Counted from the stretch's first letter, positions 4,248 to 21,760 are shown. The stretch: 22,084 nt of DNA from a virus (IMGVR_UViG_3300044809_000117:1-22084); one strand, 5' to 3'. Notes: a model not told the origin generated them from the letters alone. Program-made: numbers and translations.

Positions 4248-4688
4248 ATGACCCCACCTCTCACCCGCGCCGCGATCGTCACCGAGGCACGCGCGTGGAT
4301 CGGCACGCGCTATTGCCATCAGGCCTCGGTGAAAGGCGTCGGCTGCGATTGCCTCGGGCTGGTGCGGGGCGTTTGGCGCGCCTGCGTTGGCGATGAGCCG
4401 GAGACGGCGCCGCCTTATGCGCCGGATTGGGCCGAGGCCAAAGGCGAAGAGTCGCTGGCCAATGCCGCGTTCCGCCATCTCATTCCCGTCGTGTGTGAAA
4501 ATTTCGCCGCAGGCGACGTGCTGCTGTTTCGCTGGCGCGACGGGTTTGTCGCCAAGCATGTCGCGATCGCGGCATCCACCACCAGCATGATCCACGCCCA
4601 TGACGGCGCGTCGGTCTGCGAAGTCGCGATCGCGCCGTGGTGGCGGCGGCGTCTGGCTTATGCGTTTGCCTTTCCCGGAGTCGAATGA
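4248..4688 (+). CDS. NlpC/P60 tail cell-wall peptidase (TIGR02219, GTA gp14-like)
   Basis: This 146-residue protein has the NlpC/P60 layout. The catalytic cysteine is C35 in GVGCDCLGLVRG, the catalytic histidine H104 in FVAKHVAIAA, and the polar residue is probably H116 or H118 in MIHAHDG. An early ARAWIGTRYCHQ segment matches the phage tail-tip version. The enzyme should cleave peptide stems of murein during entry of the particle's DNA and sits in the tail tip. ATG 4248 follows ACGAGG at a spacing of seven. The stop TGA (4686-4688) overlaps the start of the megatron gene, so the two are probably translated as a coupled pair. Confidence 0.92.
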   Translation: MTPPLTRAAIVTEARAWIGTRYCHQASVKGVGCDCLGLVRGVWRACVGDEPETAPPYAPDWAEAKGEESLANAAFRHLIPVVCENFAAGDVLLFRWRDGFVAKHVAIAASTTSMIHAHDGASVCEVAIAPWWRRRLAYAFAFPGVE

Positions 4689-7600
4689 TGGCATCTCTCG
4701 TTCTCTCTGTCGCGGGTGCTGCGGCCGGTGCGGTGTTCGGGCCGGCCGGCGCGATTGTGGGAAGGATCGCGGGCGCGCTGGTCGGCAATATCATCGATCA
4801 AAAACTGTTCGGGCCGGGCGACCAGAATGTGGTCGGGCCGCGGCTCGCCGACCTCGATGTGATGGCGTCGACCGAGGGCGCGCCGATCGCGCGGGTGTAT
4901 GGCCGCGCGCGTCTGGCAGGGCAGGTGATCTGGGCGACGCAGCTCGAGGAGGTGGTCTCGGATTCAACCACGTCGGCGGGCGGCAAGGGCCATCTGGTGT
5001 CGGGGCCGCGCACGACCACCACGACCTATTCCTATTTCGGCAATTTCGCGGTCGGGCTGTGCGAAGGCGTGATCGGCGGCGTCGGGCGGATCTGGGCCGA
5101 CGGCCAGCCGCTGGATCTCACCGGCAAGACCATCCGCGTCCATCGCGGCACCGAGGAGCAGGCGCCGGACGATCTTATCGTCGCCAAGGAGGGTGCTAAC
5201 AATTCGCCGGCCTATCGCGGGCTTGCCTATGTCGTGTTCGAGCGGCTGCCGCTACAGGATTTCGGCAACCGCATTCCGCAACTCTCGTTCGAGATCATCC
5301 GGCCGGTCGGAGCGCTTGAAAGCATGGTGCGCGCGGTGACGCTGATCCCCGGCACCACCGAATTCGGCTATGAGCCATCTGCGCTCGTGAGCATTCTCGC
5401 GCCAGGCACGTCGCGCCAAGAGAATCGCCACGTCTCGAGCGCGGCCTCGGATGTACAGGCCGCGCTCGACGATCTTCTGGGCGTGTGCCCAAATCTCGAA
5501 CGCATCGCATTGGTGGTGGCGTGGTTCGGCACCGATCTGCGCTGCGGCCATTGCGCGGTGCAGCCCGGCGTCGAAGTTGCCGTAAAGGGCATCAACGGCC
5601 CCGGGTGGTCGGTGGATGGCGTAACGCGGCCGGGCGCGTATCTCGTCTCGCAAATCGGCGGCCGGCCGGCGTTCGGCGGCACGCCGTCCGATCTGAGCGT
5701 GCTGCACCTGATCGCGGAGCTTAAAGCGCGCGGGCTGAAGATTACCTTCTATCCGTTCCTGGTGATGGATATTCCATCAGGCAATGCGCTGCCCGATCCG
5801 TGGACCGGAGCATCGTCGCAGCCGGCCTATCCCTGGCGCGGCCGCATTACCTGCGATCCCGCGCCGGGACAGCCGGGCTCGCCGCAGGGCACATCGGCGG
5901 CGGCGACCCAGGTGGCCAATTTCTTCTCCGGCGGCACGTGGAATTACCGCCGCATGATCTTGCACTATGCGAATCTGGTTGCCTCAGCGGGCGGTGTCGA
6001 TGCGTTCCTGATCGGCTCGGAGTTGAGAGCGCTGACGCGGGTGCGCTCCGGCGCGGGCGTCTATCCGGCGGTCGATGCGCTGGTGACGCTGGCGGCGGAC
6101 GTGAAGGCGATCGTCGGTTCGTCTACGCTTGTTACTTATGGCGCCGACTGGACCGAGTATGGCGCCGACGTGGTCGATGCAAGTGAGGTGCGCTTTCCGC
6201 TCGATCCGCTGTGGGCATCATCGGCGATCGGCGCGGTAGGCATCGATCACTACGCTCCCTTGGCCGACTGGCGTGACGAGGCGGGGCATCGCGATTCGCT
6301 TGTTGCGTCGTCGACCTATGACCTCGACTATCTCGGGCACAACATTAGCGCGGGCGAAGGCTACGACTGGTATTACGCCGACGATGCCGCGCGTGCGTCG
6401 CAGACCCGCACCGATATCGCTGACGGTTTGGGCAAACCATGGGTGTTCCGTTCCAAGGACATCTGGGACTGGTGGTCCAACCTGCACTATGAGCGCGTCG
6501 CGCATGCGGAGCTGATCACGCCGACTGCATGGATACCGCGCTCAAAACCGATCTGGTTCACCGAGGTAGGCTGCCCCGCCGTCGACAAGGGCGCCAACCA
6601 GCCCAGCGTGTTTCCCGACCCAAAGTCGTCGGAAAACTACCTGCCGTATTTTTCCAACGGCGCGCGCGACGATCTGATTCAGCGCCGCGCGCTGGAAGCA
6701 TTTGTCGGCACGTTCGACCCCGTTTTCGGCGCGGACGACGCGCACAACCCGGTGTCGCCGGTCTATGGTGGACGCATGGTCGACGTCTCCGCGGTCCATC
6801 TGTGGACCTGGGACGCGCGGCCGTATCCGGTGTTTCCCGCGGCGACCGACATCTGGAACGACGGGCCGAACTGGCAGACCGGACACTGGCTCACCGGGCG
6901 GCTCGGCGCAGCACCCCTCGATGCGCTGGTCGGCACGCTGCTTGATGATGCCGGCGTCGACGGCGTCGATACGAGCGGTTTGCGCGACGGCTGCGACGGC
7001 TATGTGGTGGACCGGCCGATGTCGCCGCGCGCGATGATCGAGCCCTTGGCGATGGCCTATGCGTTCGACGCGACCGCCGCAGACGGCACGCTGCGATTCA
7101 TCCAGCGCGGCGGCGCGCCGGTGGCGGAGATTTTTGAAGACGATCTGGTGCTTCCGGATAGCGGCACGGTGGCGCGATTGACCCGCGCGCAGGAAACCGA
7201 ACTGCCGCGCGAGGCGAGCTTCGGCTTCACCGACGCGATCGCGGACTATCGCCGCTCCGCGGTGACCTCGCGAAAACTGGTGGGCGCAGCCGGACGCACG
7301 CTGCACTCCGATCTTGCCGTGATCACCAACGATGCCGCGGCGACCCGGCGCGCGGAAATCTGGCTGCAGGATCTGTGGGCAGGACGCGAGGGCGCAGAGT
7401 TTGCGCTGGGAATGAACGCGTTGCGGCTGGCGCCCGGCGATGTCGTCGCGCTCACCTTGAGCGGCCGGCGCCGGCTGTTCGAGATCGGCGATCTGATCGA
7501 CACCGAGGCGCGACAGGTCAAGGCGCGCAGCATCGATCCGGAAGTGTTTTCGGTGCCCTTGGCAACGTCGCGCAAAAAGCTGCCGGCGATTCCGGCGGCG

Positions 7601-8536
7601 CTCGGGCCGGTTGCGGTGACTGTGCTGGATTTGCCGGCGCTGGATTCCTCGACGCCGGTGGTGCTGACGCGGCTGGCGATCACGGCCAATCCCTGGCCGG
7701 GCTCGGTGGCGATCTGGACGTCGTCCGACGGCGCGAGTTTTGAGGTCGCCGCGGTGGCGGCCGCACCTTGCGCGATCGGCGAGACGCTGGATGATTTGCC
7801 GGTGGGCCCGACCGCGCGCTGGGATCGCGGCAATCAGGTTCGCGTAAAACTTTATAGCGGCGCACTGGCCTCGATCAGCGACGCCCGGGTGCTGGAAGGC
7901 GGCAACGCCGCGGCGGTGCGGAACGCCGACGGCGCGTGGGAGATTCTTCAATTCGCCAATGCCGAACTGGTCGACGGCCAGACCTGGCTGCTGTCGCGAC
8001 TGCTGCGCGGGCAGGCCGGCAGCGAATTTGCGATGGCCAGTCCATTGCCGGCGGGCGCGCCGTTCGTCGTGCTCGGCGCGCATCTGGTGCCGATCGCCGT
8101 TGGACTCGACACGTTGGCGCGGCCGATGCAGTTGCGCATCGTGGCAAGCGGGCGCAACCACGACGATCCCATGGCGGTGGCCTTGACGGTGACGCCCGGC
8201 GACACGGCGCTTAAGCCGCTGGCGCCGGTGCATGTCACCGCGCATCGCGCGGGGGACGGCGTTCACATCTCCTGGATCAGACGCACGCGGATCGACGGCG
8301 ACGGTTGGGGCATCGAGGTGCCGCTCGGTGAGGAAGTCGAGGCGTATGTGCTGGAGATTGTTTCCGGCGGCGCCGTGGTGCGTTCCATTGCCTGCGCGTC
8401 GCCGCAGGCGCTTTATGCCAATGCCGATGAACTGGCGGATTTCGGAACGCCGCAAACCAGTTTGCACATCCGCGTCGCGCAGCTTTCCGCGACTGTCGGC
8501 ACCGGATACGCGGCGGATGCGACGCTCACGCTCTAG
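4688..8536 (+). CDS. GTA TIM-barrel 'megatron' host-recognition protein, gp15-like
   Basis: This 1282-residue protein is the largest in the window. Its N terminus MASLVLSVAGAAAGAVFGPAGAIVG is a Gly/Ala-rich hydrophobic segment found in the family. A VYGRARLAGQVIWATQ region and a phage-tail region follow. From about residue 250 to 720 lies the GTA_TIM domain, with ERIALVVAWFGTDLRCGHC, ITFYPFLVMDIPSGN, AVGIDHYAPLADW and PIWFTEVGCPAVDKGANQPS (a probable glycosidase-like acidic residue in the last). A phage tail domain with EDDLVLPDSGTVARLTRAQE and a long beta-rich C terminus complete it. It forms the tip fibre in RcGTA. GGAG at 4677-4680 favours ATG 4688; ATG 4685 is also possible. Confidence 0.93.
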   Translation: MASLVLSVAGAAAGAVFGPAGAIVGRIAGALVGNIIDQKLFGPGDQNVVGPRLADLDVMASTEGAPIARVYGRARLAGQVIWATQLEEVVSDSTTSAGGKGHLVSGPRTTTTTYSYFGNFAVGLCEGVIGGVGRIWADGQPLDLTGKTIRVHRGTEEQAPDDLIVAKEGANNSPAYRGLAYVVFERLPLQDFGNRIPQLSFEIIRPVGALESMVRAVTLIPGTTEFGYEPSALVSILAPGTSRQENRHVSSAASDVQAALDDLLGVCPNLERIALVVAWFGTDLRCGHCAVQPGVEVAVKGINGPGWSVDGVTRPGAYLVSQIGGRPAFGGTPSDLSVLHLIAELKARGLKITFYPFLVMDIPSGNALPDPWTGASSQPAYPWRGRITCDPAPGQPGSPQGTSAAATQVANFFSGGTWNYRRMILHYANLVASAGGVDAFLIGSELRALTRVRSGAGVYPAVDALVTLAADVKAIVGSSTLVTYGADWTEYGADVVDASEVRFPLDPLWASSAIGAVGIDHYAPLADWRDEAGHRDSLVASSTYDLDYLGHNISAGEGYDWYYADDAARASQTRTDIADGLGKPWVFRSKDIWDWWSNLHYERVAHAELITPTAWIPRSKPIWFTEVGCPAVDKGANQPSVFPDPKSSENYLPYFSNGARDDLIQRRALEAFVGTFDPVFGADDAHNPVSPVYGGRMVDVSAVHLWTWDARPYPVFPAATDIWNDGPNWQTGHWLTGRLGAAPLDALVGTLLDDAGVDGVDTSGLRDGCDGYVVDRPMSPRAMIEPLAMAYAFDATAADGTLRFIQRGGAPVAEIFEDDLVLPDSGTVARLTRAQETELPREASFGFTDAIADYRRSAVTSRKLVGAAGRTLHSDLAVITNDAAATRRAEIWLQDLWAGREGAEFALGMNALRLAPGDVVALTLSGRRRLFEIGDLIDTEARQVKARSIDPEVFSVPLATSRKKLPAIPAALGPVAVTVLDLPALDSSTPVVLTRLAITANPWPGSVAIWTSSDGASFEVAAVAAAPCAIGETLDDLPVGPTARWDRGNQVRVKLYSGALASISDARVLEGGNAAAVRNADGAWEILQFANAELVDGQTWLLSRLLRGQAGSEFAMASPLPAGAPFVVLGAHLVPIAVGLDTLARPMQLRIVASGRNHDDPMAVALTVTPGDTALKPLAPVHVTAHRAGDGVHISWIRRTRIDGDGWGIEVPLGEEVEAYVLEIVSGGAVVRSIACASPQALYANADELADFGTPQTSLHIRVAQLSATVGTGYAADATLTL

Positions 8537-8563
8537 CTCTTGCCTTCCCGATGGCGCGCGTGG

Positions 8564-8788
8564 CTATGGACCCGGCAAGCCAAGCGCCGTCCAGCACTGC
8601 TGATCGCATTCCGCTTTAACCGGCAGACCGTCGTTGTCCTGGAATGCCATTAGCGCGTTCAGCGTGTCGTCATTGAAGGTGCCAGTGGGGCCGCCGGGAC
8701 CGACCGAATAGCCCTTGGCGATGATCGCGTTCTGCATCGCCGTCACCATCGGGCCGCTGTCGCCGGGTTTGAGGGGAAGTCCTGCCAT
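8564..8788 (-). CDS. Small peptidoglycan-binding domain protein
   Basis: This 74-residue protein is essentially one PG_binding_1 domain: LKPGDSGPMVTAMQNAIIAKGY, then GTFNDDTLNALMAFQDNDGL and CWTALG at the end. The repeat binds murein non-catalytically. There is no signal peptide and no attached enzyme, unusual for the domain, so it may be cytoplasmic until lysis or part of a particle. The start at 8788 has AGGAGA eight bases upstream on the minus strand; an in-frame upstream ATG at 8830 lacks this. It faces the megatron gene tail to tail, with 27 bases between their stops. Confidence 0.8.
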   Translation of the reverse strand: MAGLPLKPGDSGPMVTAMQNAIIAKGYSVGPGGPTGTFNDDTLNALMAFQDNDGLPVKAECDQQCWTALGLPGP

Positions 8789-8866
8789 TCGCAAATCTCC
8801 TGAAGGAAGTACCGCAGGAGTGTCGTGCAACCAAAGCGCGAATGCAAGCGGCGACAGCTCGGCCGT

Positions 8867-9199
8867 CTAGCGCTTTTCGTTCTCCAGGGAGCGTTCAGCT
8901 GCGGCTGTCATATGGACACGACGCGAGCTTTCCTCGACAACGGCTCCGGCGTTCTTCACGGTTTCGGCGAAAGCCTCAAGCGTCTCGATGTGCAACTTGA
9001 GCTGCTCGCGTTCCGTTTCAGACAAGTCCGACAGAGCAAGGGCTGGATTGGTCATCTGGCGCAAGGCATCGGCCTGCTTTTGTCTTAGCTGCTTTGCGGC
9101 TGCCCTGTTGTCGAAATGGTTGGCCACGAGGAGGAACAGCCCCGGTACCACGGTTGCGAAAAAAGGAGCTGTGATCGCCAGTAGTTCGACCCGTGTCAT
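8867..9199 (-). CDS. Single-pass membrane protein with coiled coil, cassette copy 1, gene b
   Basis: This 110-residue protein starts MTRVELLAITAPFFATVVPGLFLLVANHF, one membrane span at residues 5-27. A long charged helix follows with RAAAKQLRQKQADALRQM and LSETEREQLKLHIETLEAFAETVKNAG, a likely coiled coil. Its start overlaps the stop of the upstream cassette gene as ATGA (9196-9199). The N terminus resembles that of the protein at 11441-11734 (MTTVQILTVLTPVAAFAFMSAIALFERRFD), and the two occupy the same place in duplicated cassettes. I do not recognise the family. Roles such as a holin partner, spanin-like or regulatory membrane protein are open. Confidence 0.65.
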   Translation of the reverse strand: MTRVELLAITAPFFATVVPGLFLLVANHFDNRAAAKQLRQKQADALRQMTNPALALSDLSETEREQLKLHIETLEAFAETVKNAGAVVEESSRRVHMTAAAERSLENEKR

Positions 9200-9411
9200 T
9201 CCGCGTCCTCAAGGTCATTCAGGAATGTCCTGCCGATCGCGACCAATATAAGCGCAGCCATTATCGATCCAAGCAGGGTGAACCCTAATGCGTCGAAACT
9301 TCTTCTCGCCCGTTCCGGATCAAAAATAGCGCCGGCGACAGGAGTGAAGATACCGATGGCAACGCTCGCAGTGGACGCTCCGTTGAACCACAACGCAGCA
9401 AGCCTTTTCAT
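9196..9411 (-). CDS. Two-span small membrane protein, cassette copy 1, gene a
   Basis: This 71-residue protein has two hydrophobic segments, about residues 12-30 (ASTASVAIGIFTPVAGAIF) and 44-62 (TLLGSIMAALILVAIGRTF). The core LAALWFNGASTASVAIGIFT and the end GRTFLNDLEDAE align with the protein at 11731-11988 (LTATWFNTFATAIMTAGVLA and GRAILGDLEE), so the two are paralogues. It is translated first in the ATGA-coupled pair on the minus strand, divergent from the DUF2793 fibre gene. Proteins of this size and topology are sometimes labelled 'amino acid transporter' in databases; nothing here supports that. A holin-like role is possible but unproven. Confidence 0.65.
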   Translation of the reverse strand: MKRLAALWFNGASTASVAIGIFTPVAGAIFDPERARRSFDALGFTLLGSIMAALILVAIGRTFLNDLEDAE

Positions 9412-9552
9412 TGCGTCGTGTCGCTTCGAGATTCATACGCCAAAGCCCGATTTTTCGGAAACTTACATTTGGTGATTGTCGGCGCGCAAGACCGCCGTAA
9501 CCGAGCATTTGATTGCCTGCACCAGCATCGCGAGCAACACGGATCGCACACC

Positions 9553-11400
9553 ATGACCGACACCCCCAACCTCGGCCTTCCCTTCATCGAAGGCAGCCAG
9601 GCGCAGAAGCACGTTACGCATAACGAGGCGCTGCGGATTCTCGATGCGGCGATCCAGGTTGTGGTGCAGGATCTGACGCGGACTTCGCCGCCGTCGTCGC
9701 CGGCCGAGGGCGAGCGGCATGTCGTGGCCTCCGGTGCGACCGGCGCGTGGGCGGGGCAGGGCAATGCGATCGCGACCTGGCAGGACGGCGCCTGGGCGTT
9801 CCTGGTGCCGCGCACCGGCTGGTGCATCTGGTCGGTGGCTGCCGACGTGATGTTCGTGTTCGACGGCACCCACTGGCGCGATCTGCGCGACCTGCCGGTG
9901 ACCCTGGATAATGCGGTTCATGTCGGCATCAATACCACCGCGAGCTCTCCGAATCTGCTCAGCGTCAAGTCGAACGCGGCGCTGCTCACGGCCATCAACG
10001 TCGCCGACGGCGGCAGCGGCGACGCGCGCTTGCAAATCTCCAAGGAGAGTGCTGCGAAAATCGCGTCGGTGTTTTTCTCCGACGCTTTTTCCGGACGCGC
10101 CGAATTTGGCCTCGTCGGCTCCGATGCGTTCAAGCTGAAAGTGTCCGGCGACGGCTCGGCGTGGGTCGAGGCCTTCAATATCGATCAAACGACGGGCAAT
10201 CTGTCATTGCCGCGCGGGTTAGCGCTGACCGGCGTCGTTTCGCCGCCGCAGCTCACCGCCAACCAGAACGACTACAACCCGACTGGCATCGCTACCGCCT
10301 CGGTGCTGCAGCTGTCGTCGGATGCGTCGCGCACCGTCACCGGCCTTGCCGGCGGCGCGGAGGGACGCGTCGTCAGCCTCATCAATATCGGCGGCCAGCC
10401 GATCGTGCTGGCGGACGAAAGTACGTCGTCATCAGCCGCCAATCGCTTCACGCTTGGCGCTAGCCTGACCATCGCCGCAAAGCAGGCGGCGATGTTGCGT
10501 TACGACGGCACCGCCGCGCGCTGGCGGCTGATCGCGGGCGCGACCGGGTTGCTGGCGGCGTCGAATAATCTTTCCGATGTTGCAAGCACAGCCGCTGCGC
10601 GCGCCAATCTCGGCGTTCGCGAGCAGCTGACGGCGAACCGCACCTACTATGTCCGCACCGACGGCTCCGACGGCAATAACGGCCTCGCCAATTCCAGCGG
10701 CGGCGCCTTTCTCACCATCCAGAAGGCGATCGACACCGTCGCGGCGCTGGACCTGTCGGTCTACACCGTCACCATCCAGGCCGCCGACGGTACCTACACG
10801 GGAGCGGTGACGGTTACCGGCCCCTGGGTTGGTTCCGGCAGCGTTACCCTTCAAGGCAATACGACGACGCCTGCCAACGCAGTGATCACGACGGCCGTCG
10901 CCGGCGCCGCCGCGCTTTCGGTTCAATCCGGCGGCCGTCTTTCCGTCGCCGGTTTCAAGCTGGTTTCGTCAGGCAGCGGTGCGACTGCGGGGTTGAAGTC
11001 GTCGGGTTCGGCGATCCTGGTGACGGGTGCGATGGATTTCGGCGCTGCCAACCGCCAAATGCAAGCGGCCGGAAGCGGCAGCATCACGTTCGGCGCCGGC
11101 ATCACCTACAACATCAGCGCGGGCGCGGTAACGCATATCTTCTGCTCGTCGAGCGGCAACGTCGCGATCGAAGGCTGCACCGTCACCACCACGGGAGCGA
11201 TCGCATTCTCCGGCGCGTTCGTGACGTCGTCATTCGTCGGCGCGGTGATCATCGACAGCAACACCTTCACAGGCGCGAGCGCTACGGGATCGCGCTACTC
11301 GATCACCGCCAACGGCGTGGTCTACACGGCCGGTGCCGCAACCACCTACCTGCCGGGCAACGCGGCCGGATCGACCGGCAGCGGCGGGCAGTACACTTAG
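9553..11400 (+). CDS. DUF2793 tail fibre with C-terminal beta-helix
   Basis: This 615-residue protein opens with MTDTPNLGLPFIEGSQAQKH and HNEALRILDAAIQ, the DUF2793 signature. GEWHV-like strands and FLVPRTGWCIWSVAADVMFVFDG follow, so the domain spans about residues 1-115. The middle (about 120-350) is a strand-rich fibre shaft region with LQISKESAAKIASVFFSD. From about residue 360, YYVRTDGSDGNNGLANSSGG opens a right-handed beta-helix of Gly/Thr/Val-rich rungs that ends at QYT. In RcGTA a DUF2793 tail fibre protein is encoded away from the main cluster; here it lies close behind it. An in-frame ATG at 9418 is less likely because the family starts at MTDTPNLGLP. Ligand is unknown, probably a surface glycan. 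Confidence 0.85.
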   Translation: MTDTPNLGLPFIEGSQAQKHVTHNEALRILDAAIQVVVQDLTRTSPPSSPAEGERHVVASGATGAWAGQGNAIATWQDGAWAFLVPRTGWCIWSVAADVMFVFDGTHWRDLRDLPVTLDNAVHVGINTTASSPNLLSVKSNAALLTAINVADGGSGDARLQISKESAAKIASVFFSDAFSGRAEFGLVGSDAFKLKVSGDGSAWVEAFNIDQTTGNLSLPRGLALTGVVSPPQLTANQNDYNPTGIATASVLQLSSDASRTVTGLAGGAEGRVVSLINIGGQPIVLADESTSSSAANRFTLGASLTIAAKQAAMLRYDGTAARWRLIAGATGLLAASNNLSDVASTAAARANLGVREQLTANRTYYVRTDGSDGNNGLANSSGGAFLTIQKAIDTVAALDLSVYTVTIQAADGTYTGAVTVTGPWVGSGSVTLQGNTTTPANAVITTAVAGAAALSVQSGGRLSVAGFKLVSSGSGATAGLKSSGSAILVTGAMDFGAANRQMQAAGSGSITFGAGITYNISAGAVTHIFCSSSGNVAIEGCTVTTTGAIAFSGAFVTSSFVGAVIIDSNTFTGASATGSRYSITANGVVYTAGAATTYLPGNAAGSTGSGGQYT

Positions 11401-11440
11401 GCTGCATGATTCCGGAAGCGTCCGGCGGCGTCCGCGTCGT

Positions 11441-11734
11441 CTACTTCTTCTGCTTCGCCGCGATTGCTTTGTCGAGGTCCGCGAGCGCGCCATGCAGGTC
11501 GCCGTCGTTGCCGTCCTTGCCCTTCGCGAGGTCGTGTCCGACCACACGATATGCCATCAGCGTTTCCAGATTCGCAGACATGAGTTTGTCGCGAATGATG
11601 ACCCCTCGTAATCCCGGCGAGTTCGACACAGCCTCTGGCGCGCGGTCGAAACGACGCTCGAAAAGCGCGATAGCGCTCATGAACGCAAAGGCGGCAACCG
11701 GTGTCAGAACGGTCAAAATCTGGACGGTCGTCAT
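11441..11734 (-). CDS. Single-pass membrane protein with coiled coil, cassette copy 2, gene b
   Basis: This 97-residue protein starts MTTVQILTVLTPVAAFAFMSAIALFERRFD, a membrane span at about residues 5-25 followed by an Arg-rich cytoplasmic-side patch. The rest is helical and charged (LRGVIIRDKLMSANLETLMAYRVV, then GDLHGALADLDKAIAAKQKK). It is ATGA-coupled (11731-11734) to the two-span gene upstream, exactly as in copy 1 at 8867-9411. Similarity to the copy 1 partner is clearest in the N-terminal span; the soluble parts have drifted. Function not recognised. Confidence 0.65.
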   Translation of the reverse strand: MTTVQILTVLTPVAAFAFMSAIALFERRFDRAPEAVSNSPGLRGVIIRDKLMSANLETLMAYRVVGHDLAKGKDGNDGDLHGALADLDKAIAAKQKK

Positions 11735-11988
11735 TCCTCAAGGTCTCCCAAGATTGCTCGTCCCGCGAAATGTAAACCCGCACTGACAAGCATGCAAACG
11801 GCCACAATCGTAAAAATCAGCACGGGATCCTGCTCCTTTGGGCCAAAGCCGTAGATAATCGAGGCGAAGGGCGCCAATACACCAGCCGTCATAATGGCCG
11901 TGGCGAAGGTATTGAACCATGTTGCCGTGAGCTTCTTGCGCTCGTTACGAACGACTTTGTTCACCTTTGCAACTCGCCATTTTGACAA
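11731..11988 (-). CDS. Two-span small membrane protein, cassette copy 2, gene a
   Basis: The frame encodes up to 85 residues with spans at about residues 27-47 (TFATAIMTAGVLAPFASIIYG) and 57-77. It ends GRAILGDLEE, matching the copy 1 paralogue at 9196-9411. The first codon at 11988 would be TTG. A GTG at 11964 (giving VNKVVRNERKKLTATWFN) is an alternative start and leaves the conserved part intact, so the 5' end is uncertain. It leads the duplicated two-gene cassette on the minus strand, downstream of and convergent with the fibre gene. No recognised family; holin-like topology is noted but not proof. Confidence 0.62.
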   Translation of the reverse strand: MSKWRVAKVNKVVRNERKKLTATWFNTFATAIMTAGVLAPFASIIYGFGPKEQDPVLIFTIVAVCMLVSAGLHFAGRAILGDLEE

Positions 11989-12087
11989 AGAAACTCGCCA
12001 GAAGCTTCTTACGAAGCCAGCGCCGGGCAGTCAAGGCGATACACTCTAGGGTTGTGTACCATCTCCGCTTGCGCAACTTTGACGCGC

Positions 12088-12603
12088 TCAACGCCCCGAT
12101 GGCGGCGGCAGCGGCGCACCTCCGACTGAAATCGCCGGCGGCTGCTTGGGAGCAGCGGGCTTCTTCCGCGGAGCCGCGGGAGCCGGCGGCGGGGCAGGCG
12201 CGGCGGCTTGTGCCGATGCGGCGGGACGCTGCAGCGTGTCGATCGTCGCGCCTAAGGCCGCGACCTGGTCGGACAGGCGTTTGATCTCCGCCTGCTGGGC
12301 CGCGACAAGCTGCGCGGTCGATTGCAGGGTTCCCGTGATCTGCTGCTGAAAGGCCTGAAAATCCTTCAGCCCGACGGATTTGTCCGGGACCTCGCCGGGT
12401 GCGGCGCCGGGCGCTGCCACCGATGACATAAAGGACGGTAACGCGGGAAGGCCACCATCCCAAGAGCGCCAGAGCAAAGCCGAGGCCGCCCCTAATATCG
12501 CAAGCCCCGCGGCAACGGCGATTGGCACCCAACGCCTGCGTTTAGGCGCCGGCTGGTGCAGGTCCTCAATTTCATCAGGTGCGTTATCGAACAGATGGGC
12601 CAC
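12088..12603 (-). CDS. Single-pass coiled-coil membrane protein with Pro/Ala-rich tail
   Basis: This 171-residue protein begins at GTG 12603, preceded by GAGGA on the minus strand. A short acidic cytoplasmic head (DNAPDEIEDLHQPAPKRRR) precedes one membrane span at about 26-45 (VPIAVAAGLAILGAASALLW). A helical region from about 78 to 125 (DFQAFQQQITGTLQSTAQLV and QQAEIKRLSDQVAALGATID) looks like a coiled coil. The C terminus is rich in Pro, Ala and Lys. The N-in, C-out layout with the KRRR stop signal suggests a periplasmic coiled coil. No catalytic motif is visible and I do not recognise the function. It is separated from the neighbouring cassette by about 100 bases. Confidence 0.65.
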   Translation of the reverse strand: MAHLFDNAPDEIEDLHQPAPKRRRWVPIAVAAGLAILGAASALLWRSWDGGLPALPSFMSSVAAPGAAPGEVPDKSVGLKDFQAFQQQITGTLQSTAQLVAAQQAEIKRLSDQVAALGATIDTLQRPAASAQAAAPAPPPAPAAPRKKPAAPKQPPAISVGGAPLPPPSGR

Positions 12604-12683
12604 CGCAAATCCTCAATTTAATGCGGCGACCTTACGACTTATCCCGGCCCTCACTCAAGACACCCCGGAGTTTCCCCCATGCC

Positions 12684-13949: not shown

Positions 13950-15716
13950 ATGATCTCACGACCCATTCCCGCGGCGGCGGCATTGCTGTGCACGCTGTCG
14001 GCGCCGGCGCAAGCGCAGTCCTCGGCGATTACGATCGATCCAACAGTTGGGACCACGAACCAGGGGCTGGTGATCAATCAAACCTTGCCATCAAGCGGCG
14101 TCGCTACCGGTCCGCTGCTCTTGAATTCGATAACGGCCACCAATCCGGGAACGTCGACTACTGGCGGCGGTTTGAATTGGGATGCCTTTGGTCAAATTCA
14201 AAACCAGATCAACGCTCTTAGGGTGAACTTCGCGACCAGCGCCGCCAACGGCACCAACAACGGTGCCTTCAGCGTTGCGAATTTTGTCACCGCGCCAGCG
14301 GAGAGCTACGGAGCGGCGACTGGCGTCACGATAGATGGGAATGCTTCAGGCCACGACGCATGGGGCTTCATCGGTTACGCTACCGTATGGCCCGGCGCGA
14401 CCGTCGGACCGTTGATAGGGATGGAGGCAGAAGTCGGAATTTCGAACGGCGGCAGTGCGACGTATCGTATTGGCGTCGGGTCCAACACCCAAGGCCCAGT
14501 GCAAGGCAGCGTACTTGATGCAGCCTTTATGGCGTCCAGCGGTGGGGTCACAGTTCCTGGGTCACTTCCAGGAGCGCTGGCGACCCCCTGGCAGCATCTT
14601 ATGGCGCTGGTCACCAATATCTTTGGCGCTGCCGGGTCGCCCATAACCCCGACTGGAGACTTCTTCTTTTCCGAGTCCCCGGTCACGGTCGCGCACTTCG
14701 CGAACCTGCCCAACGTCACCGTCACGGGGAACATTCTGGATTTCCCGAACATGGCCCTCTACGGAAACGGCTCAGCATCCTTCGGCGTCAGGGGCCTGCT
14801 GATACCGCCAGGAACCATATACAGTTCCTGTGCGTCCTGCGGAAACGCTCAGGTCTTCGGGGCGGCCAACGGCGCGAGCGGCGCTGACGGCATGACCATG
14901 CAGGACAGCGCCGGCACCAACATCATGTTCAGCGGGGTTGCCGAGGCGGGCAATACCTTCACTCGGTTCGGGCAAGTCACCGGTAACTGGGGCGAGCTGG
15001 TAACCCTCGGCTCGACCAACGCCGGCCTCATGATCGGCACGCTCACAAGTGCGCCCTTGATTATGGGCACCAACAACACGGAACGGGTCCGAGTGACCTC
15101 GGGCGGACTGTTCAACATCGGTCCGGCCGTTGCGCCCGACACGCTGCTGACCGTGAACGGCAATAGTGGCGCGTCCGCCGCGCCAGGGTTCGGCGTCGCG
15201 CAACTGCATCTGATCGGCCAAGACGGTCAGATCGGCGGTGCGTACGCGGACGTGTTCAGTGCGCAGGGCCTCTATGCCAATCGTCACGCGGGCGGAACGC
15301 TAGCGTCCAGGACTGCCAGTGCTGGTCTCACGACCACGATCAGCTTCTCGGCGCAGCATTGGGATACTTCGGTTTATTCGGCAAGTGCCAGCATGGACAT
15401 GGGTACGATCAATACCCAGTCCCTGACCGATCATAGCGGCTTCTGGCGGGTTCGCACGGTTGCGACCGGCTCGACGATCTTGACCGAACGCATGCGCGTC
15501 CAGCAGGGGCTTACGCTCGGCAACTCGACCAGCGACCCGGGCATCGGTCTGATCTATCTCAACAACGCCTCGTTCCTGATGCGCAACCTCACTTCATGGA
15601 CTAACGGCGCCGCCGCCGCGGCCGGCACGCTGACCAACGCTCCCGCCGCCGGAAACCCAACCAAATGGATACCCATCGATGACAATGGCACTACGCGCTA
15701 CATTCCTGCTTGGTAG
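13950..15716 (+). CDS. Sec-exported fibre-like beta-rich protein
   Basis: This 588-residue protein begins with a signal peptide, MISRPIPAAAALLCTLSAPA, cleaved probably after AQA. The body is rich in Gly, Thr, Ser and Asn with alternating strands. Toward residue 370 it has LMIGTLTSAPLIMGTNNTER and VRVTSGGLFNIGP, resembling the shaft before the chaperone of S74-type tail fibres, but no S74 domain follows. Residues about 385-540 align with residues about 442-590 of the spike at 19682-21760. The end reads KWIPIDDNGTTRYIPAW. A Sec signal on a fibre-type protein is odd: phage fibres are normally cytoplasmic until lysis. It may act as a surface or periplasmic adhesin. AAAGGA gives the ribosome-binding site. 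Confidence 0.75.
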   Translation: MISRPIPAAAALLCTLSAPAQAQSSAITIDPTVGTTNQGLVINQTLPSSGVATGPLLLNSITATNPGTSTTGGGLNWDAFGQIQNQINALRVNFATSAANGTNNGAFSVANFVTAPAESYGAATGVTIDGNASGHDAWGFIGYATVWPGATVGPLIGMEAEVGISNGGSATYRIGVGSNTQGPVQGSVLDAAFMASSGGVTVPGSLPGALATPWQHLMALVTNIFGAAGSPITPTGDFFFSESPVTVAHFANLPNVTVTGNILDFPNMALYGNGSASFGVRGLLIPPGTIYSSCASCGNAQVFGAANGASGADGMTMQDSAGTNIMFSGVAEAGNTFTRFGQVTGNWGELVTLGSTNAGLMIGTLTSAPLIMGTNNTERVRVTSGGLFNIGPAVAPDTLLTVNGNSGASAAPGFGVAQLHLIGQDGQIGGAYADVFSAQGLYANRHAGGTLASRTASAGLTTTISFSAQHWDTSVYSASASMDMGTINTQSLTDHSGFWRVRTVATGSTILTERMRVQQGLTLGNSTSDPGIGLIYLNNASFLMRNLTSWTNGAAAAAGTLTNAPAAGNPTKWIPIDDNGTTRYIPAW

Positions 15717-16084: not shown

Positions 16085-16846
16085 ATGGCCTTCATCAACA
16101 TGCTCTACAACCTTTGGCCTAATGGCGATGAGAAAGTTCCTGGCCTGCGCGATGGTATCGCCGCAACGGCGCAGGCTGTCTTTAAAAAATATGGCGTCGA
16201 TAGCCCGCTTCTGGTCGCCCATGTCATGGCGCAGATCTCCCACGAATGCGGCGCGGGCCACGACGTGGTCGAGAACCTGAACTACACCGCGGGACGCATG
16301 ATGCAGGTGTGGCCGTCGCGCTTTCCGACCATGGCGAGCGCGGCGCCTTACGCCGGCAATCCGCGGGCGCTCGCCAACAAGGTCTACAACGGCCGCATGG
16401 GCAACGCGGCCGGCTCCGACGATGGCTGGAATTTTCGCGGCCGAGGTGCTGCGCAGACCACAGGGCGCGAGGGCTATGCGCGGCTGGCGAAGGCAACCGG
16501 CCTCGATCTCATCAACCATCCCGACCTGGTCAACGATCCCCAGCGGTTTCTCGAATGCGGCGTCGCCGATTTTATCCTGTGCGGCTGCCTCCCGTTCGCC
16601 AAGGCCGATGACGTCTTGAACGTCACACGGCGCCTGAACGGCGGCACTGTCGGCCTCGCGCAGCGCCAGATATGGCTTGCGAAATGGAAGGCGGCGCTGG
16701 GCACGGCGCCGATCGTGTTCGCGCCGGCGCCGGTCAGCGCGCGCAAGCCCGCGCCGGTTTCGCCGCCGCCACCGTCTGCCACGAAACCGCAGTCTCTGCT
16801 CGGGCGATTTATCGCCGCGCTGATCGTGGCTTTCAGGAGGAAGTAA
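16085..16846 (+). CDS. GH19-type endolysin (chitinase/lysozyme family) with C-terminal tail
   Basis: This 253-residue protein has a GH19 fold signature: VAHVMAQISHECGAGHDVVENLNYTAGRM, with probable catalytic E54, then NKVYNGRMGN and GWNFRGRGAAQTTGREGYARL. It ends the catalytic part near residue 205 (LNGGTVGLAQRQIWLAKWKA). A Pro/Ala linker follows (about 210-235) and a short hydrophobic, basic tail (SLLGRFIAALIVAFRRK). It should cleave the glycan strands of murein, releasing particles. The hydrophobic tail is unusual and may anchor or delay the enzyme at the membrane. The start has GGGAG 9-13 bases upstream. The stop TAA is followed directly by ATG 16847 with AGGAGG inside the last codons. Confidence 0.9.
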   Translation: MAFINMLYNLWPNGDEKVPGLRDGIAATAQAVFKKYGVDSPLLVAHVMAQISHECGAGHDVVENLNYTAGRMMQVWPSRFPTMASAAPYAGNPRALANKVYNGRMGNAAGSDDGWNFRGRGAAQTTGREGYARLAKATGLDLINHPDLVNDPQRFLECGVADFILCGCLPFAKADDVLNVTRRLNGGTVGLAQRQIWLAKWKAALGTAPIVFAPAPVSARKPAPVSPPPPSATKPQSLLGRFIAALIVAFRRK

Positions 16847-17030: not shown

Positions 17031-19292
17031 CTAGGCCATGCCGCCTTCGGCAACGTGCTGCGCTCTTATTACCGGAAGCCGGCGATGTCGATAACGTCCC
17101 AGAACAGCCATAAGGATGACAATGACCCAGACAACATGGGCTATCCAGGCGAAGCGCACGAAGGGCATGAACTGCAGTCTGACGAGCTCCGATGTGGCGG
17201 GGATCACGACGCCCTGGAACGCACCGTTAACCGGAACGGTGCGCGCAACCTGCCATCCCGACGCGGTCCTGACGGAAGCGCGCCAGTCATTATGGTATTG
17301 CTGACTGAGGGTCAAAACCGAATCTGTATCGGGATAATTGTGAACCTCGAATTCCAGCACATCGCCTTGGTCTGATGTCTTGACCGGTCGAATCCCCTCG
17401 CGCGTGGTTGAAGAGATATCGCCAGGCCCGGCTTTCGTTGTGGTTGGTGACTGGAGGCAGCACCCCATGCTGTCGCGGACGCGATAGAGCTGAAGCGTCC
17501 CCTCGGCGCCGAACCTTTCAAGGTTGGGGTGAAGGATCGGCGCCGGCGATATCACCAGACCGATGTTGCTCATCCAGAAGACGTGGCTGCCGAAGTCAGG
17601 TGCAACCATGCTGTTCCATCGCCCGTACTGTTCGGTTTCGCCGCCCAGTTCGCGGAGCAGCGCCTGGTATCGATGAGACGACAAACTGTCATAGCTGTGA
17701 ATCGAAGCGACACCAAAAATAGTGTTCGAGTTTGGAAGCAGCACATCCACGCCCGGAGCGATGAGAGCAATTCGCGTTCCGGCTGGAGTCGCCGCGATCA
17801 CCCGTTTGACCAGATCCGAATTCCGGATCAGGTCGGTCGCAGGCCGCCGCAGCATCAGGGGAAAAGCGGTGCAGGCGCCGGTCAGCCCCAGCGCGGCGAT
17901 CAGGGCAACGGATCGAAGCGAACCGACGAGGCAGCCGGCGAGAAGCAGGATTATGGCCAGCATTGCCGCCGCGATACCCCATCGGATGGTCATGCCAGCC
18001 GTCCAGCAAAAGCACAGTACGGCGATGAGACTGACCGTGGTTCCGATTATCGACCATTTGACCCCGCCAGTCCGGAACGGAGATTGCGCGGTCAGTGCGT
18101 TGACGCCATAGGCGGAAACGATGGCCAACGGCAAAACAAGCGTGCCCAGTGGATTGTCGCGCGAGAGGTTGAAGCCCAGGTGCCGCACGCCGAATGCGTA
18201 GAGCGGATGAACAAACGCAAAAGCGCAAACAATGACAATCGCGAGCCACCAGCCCCACGTCTGCCGCGAGCATCGCAGCAAGCTGAACAAGGCAAGAAAG
18301 AGAATCACCGGCGTGATGCTCACCCCGTCATAGGGCAGGGGGAACGATGGCGAGACCGGGTTTGCGATGATCTCCGGGAAGGTACCGGTCGCGAAAGTAC
18401 GCATCAGCGTCGTGAAGGAATCGATTGTCGGTAGCGTCGCCATGAAGAACGACACATCGGTCGCGATGCGGGCGGAGCGCGAGGCAGTGCTGGCAATATC
18501 CAGAACGTTGGGCGCCGAAAGCAGGATTCCGCCGACGCCAAAAACTGCCACTGCGCCCAGATATTTGATGGCCGCAGCGGTGCCTGCTGACTTCCGGCGC
18601 CGCTGCAACGCCCACAGCATAAATCCCGCCAGCAGGTAGGCCTCGAAAACGACCCCCTGTGAGTGCGCCGTCATCATGAGGCTGTAGCAGCTGAAGGCAA
18701 GAACGGCGCCTCCCGGCAAATCGATTTGCCTTGCCATGCGCGTCAGCGCGTAGAACGCGCCGGCAGACCAGCAGGTTACCGCAAGAAACATGGGAAAGGT
18801 CAGCCAGTACATCATTAGCGGCGCCGCGGCGACGCTTCCTCCGGCAATGAGGCCAGCGAGAGGATTCAAGGACAGTTCCTTGCACAGCAGCATCACAAAC
18901 AGGCCCGCAAGAAAGCAAAGACCAAGCGACATCAGGGTCAGCAATCGGGCGGGGTTGTTGGTGATCTTCGCAAGAACCCACATCGGCGTATAGGCGCCGC
19001 TGAATCCGCCTTGATAGAGCGGCCTGCCGAGTTCGTTGGTGCTGGTCCACAATGCGAGCCAGCCCGATCGTGGAGCTTGCACGTGACTTTGAATTTCAGG
19101 AATAAAGAAATGCCAATAATCGAAGAACTTGCCGTTCTCGGTATACGCCGACGGCGTGCGCGGCGGTCCTGTTTCCGCGGCTAATGGGTAAGGCGCGACG
19201 ACTTCGCCGAACATCCAGAACGGGTGGATCAGCGCGAAAAATAAAGCGACGTAGATCAGCAAGGCGCTTCTGAAGCTCAGTTTACGGTCCAT
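17031..19292 (-). CDS. YfhO-family polytopic membrane protein (GT-C-like)
   Basis: This 753-residue protein has about a dozen hydrophobic spans in the first 500 residues, then a soluble domain of about 210 residues, and a final span (FAWIAHVVWVIVILMAVLG) near the C terminus. The first loop has FFDYWHFFIPEIQ after span 1, and later LGFNLSRDNPLGTLVLPLAI. The layout is that of bacterial YfhO-family proteins, related to GT-C glycosyltransferases, some of which glycosylate surface polymers. It is alone on the minus strand between phage-like + genes, with repeats on both sides, so it was probably inserted. No strong ribosome-binding site is visible before ATG 19292. Donor and acceptor cannot be read from sequence; a surface-glycan role is inference. 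Confidence 0.75.
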   Translation of the reverse strand: MDRKLSFRSALLIYVALFFALIHPFWMFGEVVAPYPLAAETGPPRTPSAYTENGKFFDYWHFFIPEIQSHVQAPRSGWLALWTSTNELGRPLYQGGFSGAYTPMWVLAKITNNPARLLTLMSLGLCFLAGLFVMLLCKELSLNPLAGLIAGGSVAAAPLMMYWLTFPMFLAVTCWSAGAFYALTRMARQIDLPGGAVLAFSCYSLMMTAHSQGVVFEAYLLAGFMLWALQRRRKSAGTAAAIKYLGAVAVFGVGGILLSAPNVLDIASTASRSARIATDVSFFMATLPTIDSFTTLMRTFATGTFPEIIANPVSPSFPLPYDGVSITPVILFLALFSLLRCSRQTWGWWLAIVIVCAFAFVHPLYAFGVRHLGFNLSRDNPLGTLVLPLAIVSAYGVNALTAQSPFRTGGVKWSIIGTTVSLIAVLCFCWTAGMTIRWGIAAAMLAIILLLAGCLVGSLRSVALIAALGLTGACTAFPLMLRRPATDLIRNSDLVKRVIAATPAGTRIALIAPGVDVLLPNSNTIFGVASIHSYDSLSSHRYQALLRELGGETEQYGRWNSMVAPDFGSHVFWMSNIGLVISPAPILHPNLERFGAEGTLQLYRVRDSMGCCLQSPTTTKAGPGDISSTTREGIRPVKTSDQGDVLEFEVHNYPDTDSVLTLSQQYHNDWRASVRTASGWQVARTVPVNGAFQGVVIPATSELVRLQFMPFVRFAWIAHVVWVIVILMAVLGRYRHRRLPVIRAQHVAEGGMA

Positions 19293-19450
19293 TCAGAATA
19301 CCGGTCCGAGACTCTGCAAATTCGCGTCCAGAACGATTGTCGCAATGCGCGGCAGCGGCCCCGGTGGATGCAGCAAGGATGGACTTCCGCGCCATCCGCG
19401 GCGGCCGGTCGCCCACAAACCCTTGAGCAGACGAGACCGTGCTTTGTCCT

Positions 19451-19510
19451 ACCGTGCAGCTAATCCGCGAACAAGCCGCTAACTCAGATTTTCCAGCGCT
19501 CCACGCCCGA
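19451..19510 (+). repeat. Diverged 60-bp direct repeat, right copy
   Basis: The partner of 16971-17030, same orientation, offset exactly 2480 bases. Here it is joined directly to an endolysin 3' end remnant. The preceding gap 19293-19450 shows nothing I can name. Confidence 0.7.
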
Positions 19511-19514
19511 CCAG

Positions 19515-19610
19515 CCGGCTTTGCCGCCGGTTACGCCACCGTCTGCCACGTCGCAGTCTCCGCTCGCGCGATTGATTGCCGCTTTGGTCGCGGCGTTCCG
19601 CAGAAAATAA
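19515..19610 (+). pseudogene. Remnant of an endolysin 3' end
   Basis: Read in frame to TAA 19608-19610 this encodes PALPPVTPPSATSQSPLARL followed by IAALVAAFRRK. It matches the linker and tail of the intact endolysin (PVSPPPPSATKPQSLLGRF, then IAALIVAFRRK). The catalytic domain is absent upstream; instead the 60-bp repeat is joined to it. It sits about 70 bases before the spike gene. The matching tail and stop position leave little doubt that it is a duplicated end of the endolysin gene or of a close relative. Confidence 0.8.
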
Positions 19611-19681
19611 CGCCCGTCTCCGGGCCCCCCGCGCAGGCGCATCGAAAATTTTCCGACCTCTTAACCCCGAAGGAGCCGACC

Positions 19682-21760
19682 ATGACCCAGCTTGTCTTCA
19701 ATACCTATGATGACCTCATTGCCGCTGCGCCCTCAGCGGGGGATACCGCGGTGCTGCTCGGCTATGCGTGGAAAGGCGACGGCGGCGGAGGCGACCTGAT
19801 CTGGGACAGCGCTTCCACCGCGACGCCGCACACCTCGATCATCATCCAGCGCGCCGCCGGCGGCACCGGTCGCTGGTTTCGCCTGTTCGACGAACAGGAC
19901 GGACCAGTCAACATCAGATGGTTCGGTGCGCTCGGCGATAGCGTGACCGACGACAAAGCCGCGATCGATGCGGCGATCGCCTATTGCGTCGCCAGAAGTC
20001 GTACCCTGGGATTCCCTGATGGCACCTATGCGCATGCCGGCGCGATCAATTGGGCCTTCAACCATCTCCACGTCATGGCGCTCGGCGATGATGTCGTTTT
20101 TCTTCATACCGGCACGGGCGTTGCACACAGTTTCAGCGGCATCGCGAACTACCCGGGAACGCAAGGCTGCGTCGGCGGCGTGTTCGGCGGCCCTGGCCGG
20201 ATCATGCTGAAGGGCAACCTTGCCGGCACCACCACGCGGGTTATCGATCTGGACAACTGGCATCAAGGCTACATGAAGGTGGCGCTTCATGACGGGCAGA
20301 CCGCTTTCTACGGTAATGATACCGGTGGAGTCGGTTCGTCCGCCGTGGAAACCACCTTCGACCTGCGCATCACGTCCCAGGACGGTCCTTGGGCGCATCA
20401 GCCCGGTCATGGTGTCGACTTTACCAAGCCGGTCGCCTGCATCTTCGAAAAATTGATCGTCGAGAACGTCGGAAACGGCGGTGTCACCGCTGTCGCCCTC
20501 ACCGGCGCGGCTAACAACTTGTTCCGGGGCGGCACCGTCGAAGGCAATCTCGGAAGCGGCATTACCGAAGACAGCACTTGCAGTCATAATACCTATATCC
20601 AGCTCGCCAACGAAGCAAACGGCGGGACCAACGACTGGATTCTGTCCGGGACCGCGCCGGTCCTGATCAACTGCAATGGCGGCGGCGCCAACGGATGTCT
20701 GTTCAACAGCACCAGCGCCACGTTGATCGGCGGCGTGTTCTATAATGTCGTGATCAACGACAACAATCTGTGGTCCAATTCAACCGAGTTTCACGGCAGT
20801 TTCACCAATAACGGAACACATACCACCATTATCAATCCGCAAGGAGGCGTGGCGACTGCGGTGGAGTCCGCCGCCACTGTCCTGCAGTCCAAGACATTCG
20901 ACACCGCAAACGCCAATACACTCAAGATCAATAGCAACACCGTCAACGCTGTCACTGGAACTGGCAGCACGGTCGCGCTGAGCGCGGCACCGCGGTTTAC
21001 GGGGCAGGTCGAGATTGGTGCGAATGTCGCGCCGGATTCGACCTTGACGGTGAATAACAATACCGGAGCTGCTGTTGCGCCGTCGCTGCCGCGTGAGCTG
21101 CATCTGATTGGCGCCGACGCCGCCTTCAGTGGCGTTCTCTCCGACAACTATGGCAGCGAGGGTCTTTATCTCGCGAGGGCGGCGGACGGCACCCAGGCCA
21201 GCAAAATCGCCATCGGCCCCCATACGTCATATTTCGCGATAGGCGGACAAACATGGGACGGGTCTGCCTACACCAGCAACATTGCAATCGAGTTCATGAC
21301 GGTCAATACGCAGACGGGATCGGATCATAGTTCCCGCGTTCGCATCAAGACCGTGCCGGCGGGAAGCACGACGGTCCAGGAGGTCGTCAGCTTCGGGTCT
21401 GGCGTATCGGTTGGAACGACGACGGATTACGGCCTGCAGAATTTGCTGGTGGCCGGCTCGGTCTCAACCGCGTCTCCGGTCACGCTCACCGGCACCTCGG
21501 GATCGGCCGGCGCGACCGACAGTTCGATCATCGTCAACGCATCCGGCACATTCACGCTGACGCTGCCGCCGGCTGCGAGCTATTCCGGCCGATGGCTGAG
21601 CCTGAAATCGATCGCCGCCCAAACCGTCAACAGCGCGTCGTCGAACGTGGTGCCCCTCGCGGGCGGCGCGTCCGGCACGGCGCTGCTCACGGCAGCCGCG
21701 GGAAAATGGGCCAACCTGCAATCGGACGGCACCAACTGGATCGTCATGTCGGCGAACTAG
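19682..21760 (+). CDS. Pectate-lyase-like tail spike
   Basis: This 692-residue protein begins MTQLVFNTYDDLIAAAPSAG, an N-terminal particle-binding segment common in tail spikes. VNIRWFGALGDSVTDDKAAIDAAIAYC, about residues 78-104, is the classic entry of a pectate-lyase superfamily beta-helix. The helix runs to about residue 400 with Asn/Gly-rich rungs. Residues about 442-590 form the domain shared with the exported protein at 13950-15716, and the last 100 residues resemble generic fibre ends (SGRWLSLKSIAAQ, ANLQSDGTNWIVMSAN). Such spikes bind and often cut surface polysaccharide. AGGAG at 19671-19675 fixes the start at 19682; the frame open upstream to 19439 covers repeat and remnant sequence. 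No signal peptide is present. Confidence 0.85.
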   Translation: MTQLVFNTYDDLIAAAPSAGDTAVLLGYAWKGDGGGGDLIWDSASTATPHTSIIIQRAAGGTGRWFRLFDEQDGPVNIRWFGALGDSVTDDKAAIDAAIAYCVARSRTLGFPDGTYAHAGAINWAFNHLHVMALGDDVVFLHTGTGVAHSFSGIANYPGTQGCVGGVFGGPGRIMLKGNLAGTTTRVIDLDNWHQGYMKVALHDGQTAFYGNDTGGVGSSAVETTFDLRITSQDGPWAHQPGHGVDFTKPVACIFEKLIVENVGNGGVTAVALTGAANNLFRGGTVEGNLGSGITEDSTCSHNTYIQLANEANGGTNDWILSGTAPVLINCNGGGANGCLFNSTSATLIGGVFYNVVINDNNLWSNSTEFHGSFTNNGTHTTIINPQGGVATAVESAATVLQSKTFDTANANTLKINSNTVNAVTGTGSTVALSAAPRFTGQVEIGANVAPDSTLTVNNNTGAAVAPSLPRELHLIGADAAFSGVLSDNYGSEGLYLARAADGTQASKIAIGPHTSYFAIGGQTWDGSAYTSNIAIEFMTVNTQTGSDHSSRVRIKTVPAGSTTVQEVVSFGSGVSVGTTTDYGLQNLLVAGSVSTASPVTLTGTSGSAGATDSSIIVNASGTFTLTLPPAASYSGRWLSLKSIAAQTVNSASSNVVPLAGGASGTALLTAAAGKWANLQSDGTNWIVMSAN

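Follow-up and report, generated by a model that had tools for sequence, protein, structure and literature searches.

Small SOS-made membrane proteins of known function in Caulobacter and Bacillus (SidA and YneA) block division. SidA is a LexA-controlled inner-membrane division inhibitor of 29 aa that acts on FtsW in Caulobacter (PMC4211646), an organism for which GTTC-N7-GTTC has been reported as the LexA box (PMC4211646, PMC9578287), and DidA, a 71-aa Caulobacter protein with one span, is induced by DNA damage in an SOS-independent manner (PMC4211646). Here we analyse a 22,084-base stretch of DNA deposited in IMG/VR as a virus (IMGVR_UViG_3300044809_000117; "the window" denotes this whole stretch), in which two pairs of small genes, each consisting of an A and a B gene, flank the DUF2793 fibre gene of a gene transfer agent (GTA) cluster. 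An earlier note, made from the sequence alone, had described these pairs as ATGA-coupled and as lying on the strand opposite to the fibre gene, and this layout was borne out:

8867..9199, minus strand: B1, the single-span member of pair 1, with 110 aa and an ATGA overlap with A1
9196..9411, minus strand: A1, the two-span member of pair 1, with 71 aa when called from the ATG at 9411
11441..11734, minus strand: B2, the single-span member of pair 2, with 97 aa and an ATGA overlap with A2
11731..11988, minus strand: A2, the two-span member of pair 2 (85 aa counted from the TTG at 11988, or 77 aa from the GTG at 11964, MNKVVRNERKKLTA...), carrying the full family signature

Compared by description only, A/B resembles SidA in being very small, located in the inner membrane, alphaproteobacterial and, in one clade, preceded by a GTTC-N7-GTTC promoter, but SidA is a single protein whereas A and B are encoded by an overlapping pair. 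With DidA, likewise compared by description, the likeness lies in the size range, the single span (for B) and the alphaproteobacterial origin, while DidA is under the control of DriD rather than LexA and lacks a hairpin partner. YneA and SosA, the SOS-induced membrane division inhibitors of the Firmicutes, are also small membrane proteins, although they belong to another phylum and are single genes (again a comparison by description). Small membrane toxin-antitoxin modules share with A/B short, hydrophobic, paired genes and a patchy distribution; unlike them, A is not placed by Pfam or NCBIfam in a family of recognised toxins or antitoxins, and the pairs of the window gave no match in PADLOC. 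Phage holin/antiholin pairs similarly combine small two-span and one-span membrane proteins, whereas A/B is host-chromosomal, lies outside phage lysis cassettes and has no supported holin match. On the reading favoured below, A/B would work like the SidA/DidA/YneA class of small membrane inhibitors without being a member of it.

A family of paired small membrane proteins

In agreement with the architecture previously proposed for the pairs, A has two predicted spans and B has one, as counted from hydropathy rather than with a trained predictor. The view that the two copies are clearly related but diverged holds for A1 and A2, which are homologous (BLASTP, 33% identity over 75 positions, E 3e-8), the A1 query also retrieving A2 within the record at E 1.2e-6. 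It does not extend to B1 and B2, for which no local alignment was obtained even at E 100 and which have in common their length class, their position and an N-terminal span (MT..., with a proline in the span).

A hidden Markov model search detected A in 74 of the 297 genomes of the GTDB family to which genome G005 belongs, on chromosomes and a few plasmids, in 36 of 297 genomes of the order, and in 11 of 398 of the phylum, nine of these eleven having also come from the order search; these counts refer to sampled genomes, in each of which an initial filter scored only some of the candidates. Plasmid-borne matches were found in Methylobacterium, Microvirga and Komagataeibacter. On the Methylobacterium and Microvirga plasmids, A is followed at an ATGA overlap by a single-span protein of 31-39 aa, with no fibre gene, and a helix-turn-helix (HTH) gene stands immediately upstream of the pair in the Methylobacterium plasmid. 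The signature of A consists of N-E-x-x-K-L-x-A, G...P in span 1 and L-H...R..L..L at span 2. No family corresponding to A exists in Pfam, NCBIfam, PHROG or PADLOC, a profile search of the PDB gave nothing significant, and searches of the available literature for the A motif and for small SOS membrane proteins of rhizobia brought up nothing pertinent. Pattern scans of IMG/VR returned one true relative with A1, and none with either A2 or an A2/Methylobacterium alignment. Each of the two pairs of the window is a member of A/B, an undescribed, mostly Hyphomicrobiales-borne family of paired small inner-membrane proteins. Roughly one in four sampled genomes of a large alphaproteobacterial family contains A, and the libraries searched offer neither a name nor a model for the family, the small size of both genes being the probable reason.

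Pairing is close to universal. In a first set of 86 A matches, the B start and the A stop overlap by 4 nt in 79 and by 1 or 11 nt in 4; upon re-reading, nearly all of the remaining apparent exceptions have B in another start or frame. The second set paired alike; only L220, which is a weak match to A, clearly departs from the rule, having no B. Altogether, among about 110 family members, practically every A has a B next to it and overlapping with it, keeping in mind that B is too short for an independent search, such that lone B genes would be missed. Homologues elsewhere are paired and not scattered as single genes. Both genes are also conserved at the protein level: in comparisons between close relatives (n = 52), the ratio of nonsynonymous to synonymous substitutions (dN/dS) had a median of 0.12 for A and 0.14 for B, indicating that A and B are real proteins under purifying selection. 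The suggestion that the two proteins work together is thus well supported, the overlap being kept in about 110 members and each gene being under purifying selection, and A and B in all likelihood form an obligate functional pair. Their stop/start overlap would couple translation, so that both proteins would be made together.

The distribution of basic residues gives an indication of membrane orientation. Lysine and arginine counts were 218 in the N-tail, 53 in the loop and 188 in the C-tail of 83 A proteins, and 10 in the N-tail against 275 after the span in 81 B proteins. From these sequence counts, we infer that A forms a helical hairpin whose two ends are predicted to be cytoplasmic, and that B is a single-span protein with its N-terminus predicted outside and its basic tail inside; the two may form a heteromeric inner-membrane complex. 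An AlphaFold model of A2 consists of two long helices (residues 3-46 and 55-84; pLDDT 72, pTM 0.42), and B1 was poorly predicted (pLDDT 56). The B proteins also tend to share their last residues, [PA][AG]E terminating 41 of 81 (for example L163, L158 and L129), against 0.3 expected from the internal tail frequency.

Two variations on the basic arrangement were seen. At L161, two B-like genes stand in tandem downstream of one A. Genome G168 carries five A copies at distant chromosomal sites (L126, L142, L159, L184 and a broken copy at 3660037), one of the five being interrupted by a stop.

LexA boxes and the possible role of the pair

A perfect GTTC-N7-GTTC motif was found upstream of 12 of 124 pairs, compared with 3 of 668 genes in the neighbourhood (Fisher p 4e-8). 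Five promoter motif types were tried, so that more than one hypothesis was tested, yet the difference is wide and the boxes cluster in a single clade; because related sequences lack independence, the p-value exaggerates the strength of the evidence. Among 12 permuted tetramers only GTTC was enriched, and among spacers of 3 to 12 only 7. In all 12 pairs, TTGAC precedes the box by 10-27 nt. Two further genomes of the clade recovered after the motif had been defined, L235 and L236, also carry the box, bringing the clade total to 14 of 15 genomes; the box stands behind TTGAC upstream of A in L120, L121, L122, L127, L130-L133, L135, L137, L141, L160, L235 and L236. On the strength of these promoter sequences, LexA control of the pair is very probable in this clade. 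Scans upstream of A for other consensus sequences found EcfG at or below the largest shuffle, and none for RpoH and sigma-70. Some members have an additional small gene that separates the LexA box from A (L131:2584-2775 and the L141:4810-4971 region); its product, of about 61 aa, has an NPPKGDGHRNG motif and no Pfam match, and in L129 the same motif extends a longer upstream open frame.

These observations lead us to favour, tentatively, a reading in which A and B make up an obligate, in one clade SOS-linked complex of the inner membrane that serves host stress physiology and slows growth or division, the copies in the window being cargo. On host chromosomes the pair would be a stand-alone unit amid housekeeping genes; in one clade, the LexA-type promoter would cause it to be made upon DNA damage, and the stress-made membrane complex would then slow growth or division. 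Inhibition of growth or division is our leading guess for the effect, because the known small SOS-made membrane proteins block division, and by this analogy it is possible, though short of probable. Doubtful, in our opinion, is the more specific proposal that the pair supplies to Hyphomicrobiales the DNA-damage block of growth or division that SidA supplies to Caulobacter, as a heteromer of a hairpin and a single-span protein, the latter often (P/A)(A/G)E-ended, of which copies ride plasmids and GTA clusters. Should the pair prove to act as a checkpoint for DNA damage, it would be relevant to the way in which Hyphomicrobiales halt division after such damage, and the obligate overlap of two membrane genes, together with the LexA promoters of one clade, offers concrete tests of its role.

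Several findings weigh against an SOS-linked stress complex. Only a single clade of the family has the LexA box in its promoters; neither of the window's pairs has a perfect box upstream, and one-mismatch matches in the window number 19 against 17.1 expected, which is chance level. The lineage-conserved housekeeping surroundings of A/B equally fit a constitutive envelope function, the AlphaFold confidence is only low to moderate for A2 and B1, and neither B1 nor B2 has the [PA][AG]E end.

The alternative that survives best, although we consider it somewhat unlikely, is that A/B is a constitutive complex tuning a larger inner-membrane machine, such as a transporter or a respiratory or envelope enzyme, to which SOS control was added in one clade. 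Each clade keeps its own chromosomal site beside housekeeping genes, for example between the ubiB-like and coaBC genes, and this conservation within lineages, the strong purifying selection on A and B, and the absence of the LexA box outside one clade all agree with an accessory subunit. A conserved partner gene, however, is not apparent among the nearest neighbours, where Pfam, PADLOC and PHROG scans revealed no enriched partner, defence or phage class, and where strands are near random (32 same and 25 opposite upstream, 29 and 28 downstream). A patchy presence (about a quarter of the best family) and up to five copies per genome, as in G168, also fit a core subunit poorly.

Unlikely as well is a membrane toxin with its control protein, in which A (or B) would harm the membrane or growth and the partner would neutralise it, as in an addiction-like module. 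Small hydrophobic paired genes, a patchy distribution, multicopy genomes, plasmid carriage and the HTH gene upstream of the Methylobacterium plasmid pair would suit such a module, as would the direction of decay, A being broken where B stays open (A1 of the window, L003, L034 and probably L070), with no case seen of an intact A beside a broken B. Against it, no toxin or antitoxin family was matched, the sites are stable within lineages rather than mobile islands, and the decay events are few and come mostly from metagenome contigs. Nor did the pairs score as membrane effectors of the SLATT or CBASS type: PADLOC gave no match, SLATT_4 scored 11.7 bits against a cut-off of 55 (E 0.18), and a SLATT_2 match was obtained in 1 of 38 members (E 0.0085).

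Lastly, a link to fibres or phages, which the earlier note had considered in the form of a holin/regulator or an immunity-like pair for the fibre, found no support. The A/B pairs are neither conserved in nor linked to RcGTA clusters: in 14 of 14 complete genomes with both features the pair lies away from the GTA cluster, the closest at about 131 kb by coordinate reading, and four pair-bearing genomes have no GTA_TIM match. Nearly all related GTA loci have the fibre gene without pairs. The neighbours are housekeeping genes, phage or defence neighbours being limited to two integrases and isolated restriction genes, and two A queries against 50,697 phage records gave zero matches. Despite the two copies flanking the fibre in the window and a GH19-type endolysin nearby (16085-16846), a GTA or phage function, be it a holin/antiholin for GTA release or fibre immunity, is hence highly improbable, given the separate locations, the pairless related loci, the empty phage records and a single weak holin match among 38 members (E 8e-4) with no location in a lysis cassette.

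Arrival and decay of the pairs at the fibre gene

The left half of the record is the tail part of an RcGTA-type cluster, with genes for a tail tube protein, a GTA-gp10-type chaperone, TAC, DUF2460, BR0599-type hub proteins, NlpC/P60 and GTA_TIM/Rcc01698, followed by DUF2793, in the RcGTA-type order. The setting of the pairs is a domesticated element, a gene transfer agent, and not a phage. The features surrounding the pairs are:

4685..8536, plus strand: GTA TIM-barrel/Rcc01698-like tail protein (Pfam GTA_TIM 8.1e-136, Rcc01698_C 1.2e-32)
8564..8830, minus strand: 88-aa peptidoglycan-binding-domain protein beside pair 1 (Pfam PG_binding_1 2.8e-9)
9553..11400, plus strand, with the true start at about 9553: DUF2793 fibre gene of the GTA-like cluster, outside the pairs (Pfam DUF2793 1.7e-32)

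DUF2793 has been named the GTA tail fibre in a co-evolution study (PMC10883770), in accordance with which the identification of this gene as a fibre gene was correct, the element that hosts it being a GTA cluster. Between the window and its relative L003, the fibre gene has a dN/dS of 0.13, consistent with purifying selection, and a genome scan based on the fibre placed the locus near Afipia, Nitrobacter, Rhodopseudomonas and Bradyrhizobiaceae genomes.

The gap between the TIM-barrel and fibre genes is at most 70 bp in 35 of 46 related loci, mostly about 10 bp. It measures about 1,016 bp in the window, 687 bp in L033 and 801 bp in L034, the latter two being the closest relatives of the window (L033 and L003 are one contig). 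In all three, the antisense insertion in this gap is pair 1 or its remnants, and both closest relatives have pair 1 only, pair 2 being missing.

A1 lacks the N-terminal NE..KL motif of the family and the conserved histidine of span 2. Upstream of it, an ATG opens 'MNLEATRRNEK', which contains the family N-terminal 'RRNE', in another frame; because the family motif is out of frame, A1 is probably damaged, that is, a frameshifted, shortened or restarted copy as judged from its reading frames. The A gene of pair 1 has lost its N-terminus in the window, is frameshifted in L003 and is mostly gone in L034, and its B is open in all three (111 aa in L003), with a dN/dS of 0.28 for B1 between the window and L003. 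By its sequence, pair 1 is decaying, as observed in metagenome assemblies (window, L003 and L034) in which the frameshifts need read-level confirmation.

With respect to origin, the earlier note had left the choice between an old duplication and two separate insertions, and this alternative stands in outline. In the tree, pair 1 falls together with L142, which lies on the chromosome of G168 beside a purine-biosynthesis gene (support 90 for A, 95 for A plus B), which favours a separate origin of pair 1, and the closest A sequence to that of pair 2 is L108, at 46%. However, with about 77 alignable columns, an approximately unbiased (AU) test did not reject a clade uniting L003 with pairs 1 and 2 (p 0.82 for A alone, 0.61 for A plus the B span). 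That both cassettes arose by tandem duplication inside the locus, instead of by two arrivals, we regard as improbable: it would agree with the homology of A1 and A2 and with the AU result, whereas the grouping of pair 1 with L142, the affinity of pair 2 to L108, the failure of B1 and B2 to align, and the presence of pair 1 only in the nearest relatives all speak against it.

Under the favoured reading of an SOS-linked host complex, two host units would have inserted antisense around the GTA fibre gene as cargo, serving neither tail nor release functions. For the window, a phage or fibre story would thus give way to one of host cargo in a GTA operon.

Other genes in the window

The gene for the peptidoglycan-binding-domain protein at 8564-8830 is likewise inserted antisense in the gap that separates the TIM-barrel and fibre genes, and has no counterpart in the relatives' loci L006-L058. 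A scan of positions 8500-12650 for terminators and promoters gave none above chance. Just past pair 2, at 12088-12603 on the minus strand, lies a gene for a 171-aa one-span protein with a proline-rich tail, which is also present in L033 and has only weak SlyX-like and spanin-like matches. Downstream of the endolysin, the minus strand encodes a 753-aa multi-span membrane protein (17031-19292) with no Pfam match. Two more long fibre-like genes are present on the plus strand, at 13950-15716 and 19439-21760; the second has a pectate-lyase-like domain, and by eye the two contain similar stretches near the C-terminal half.

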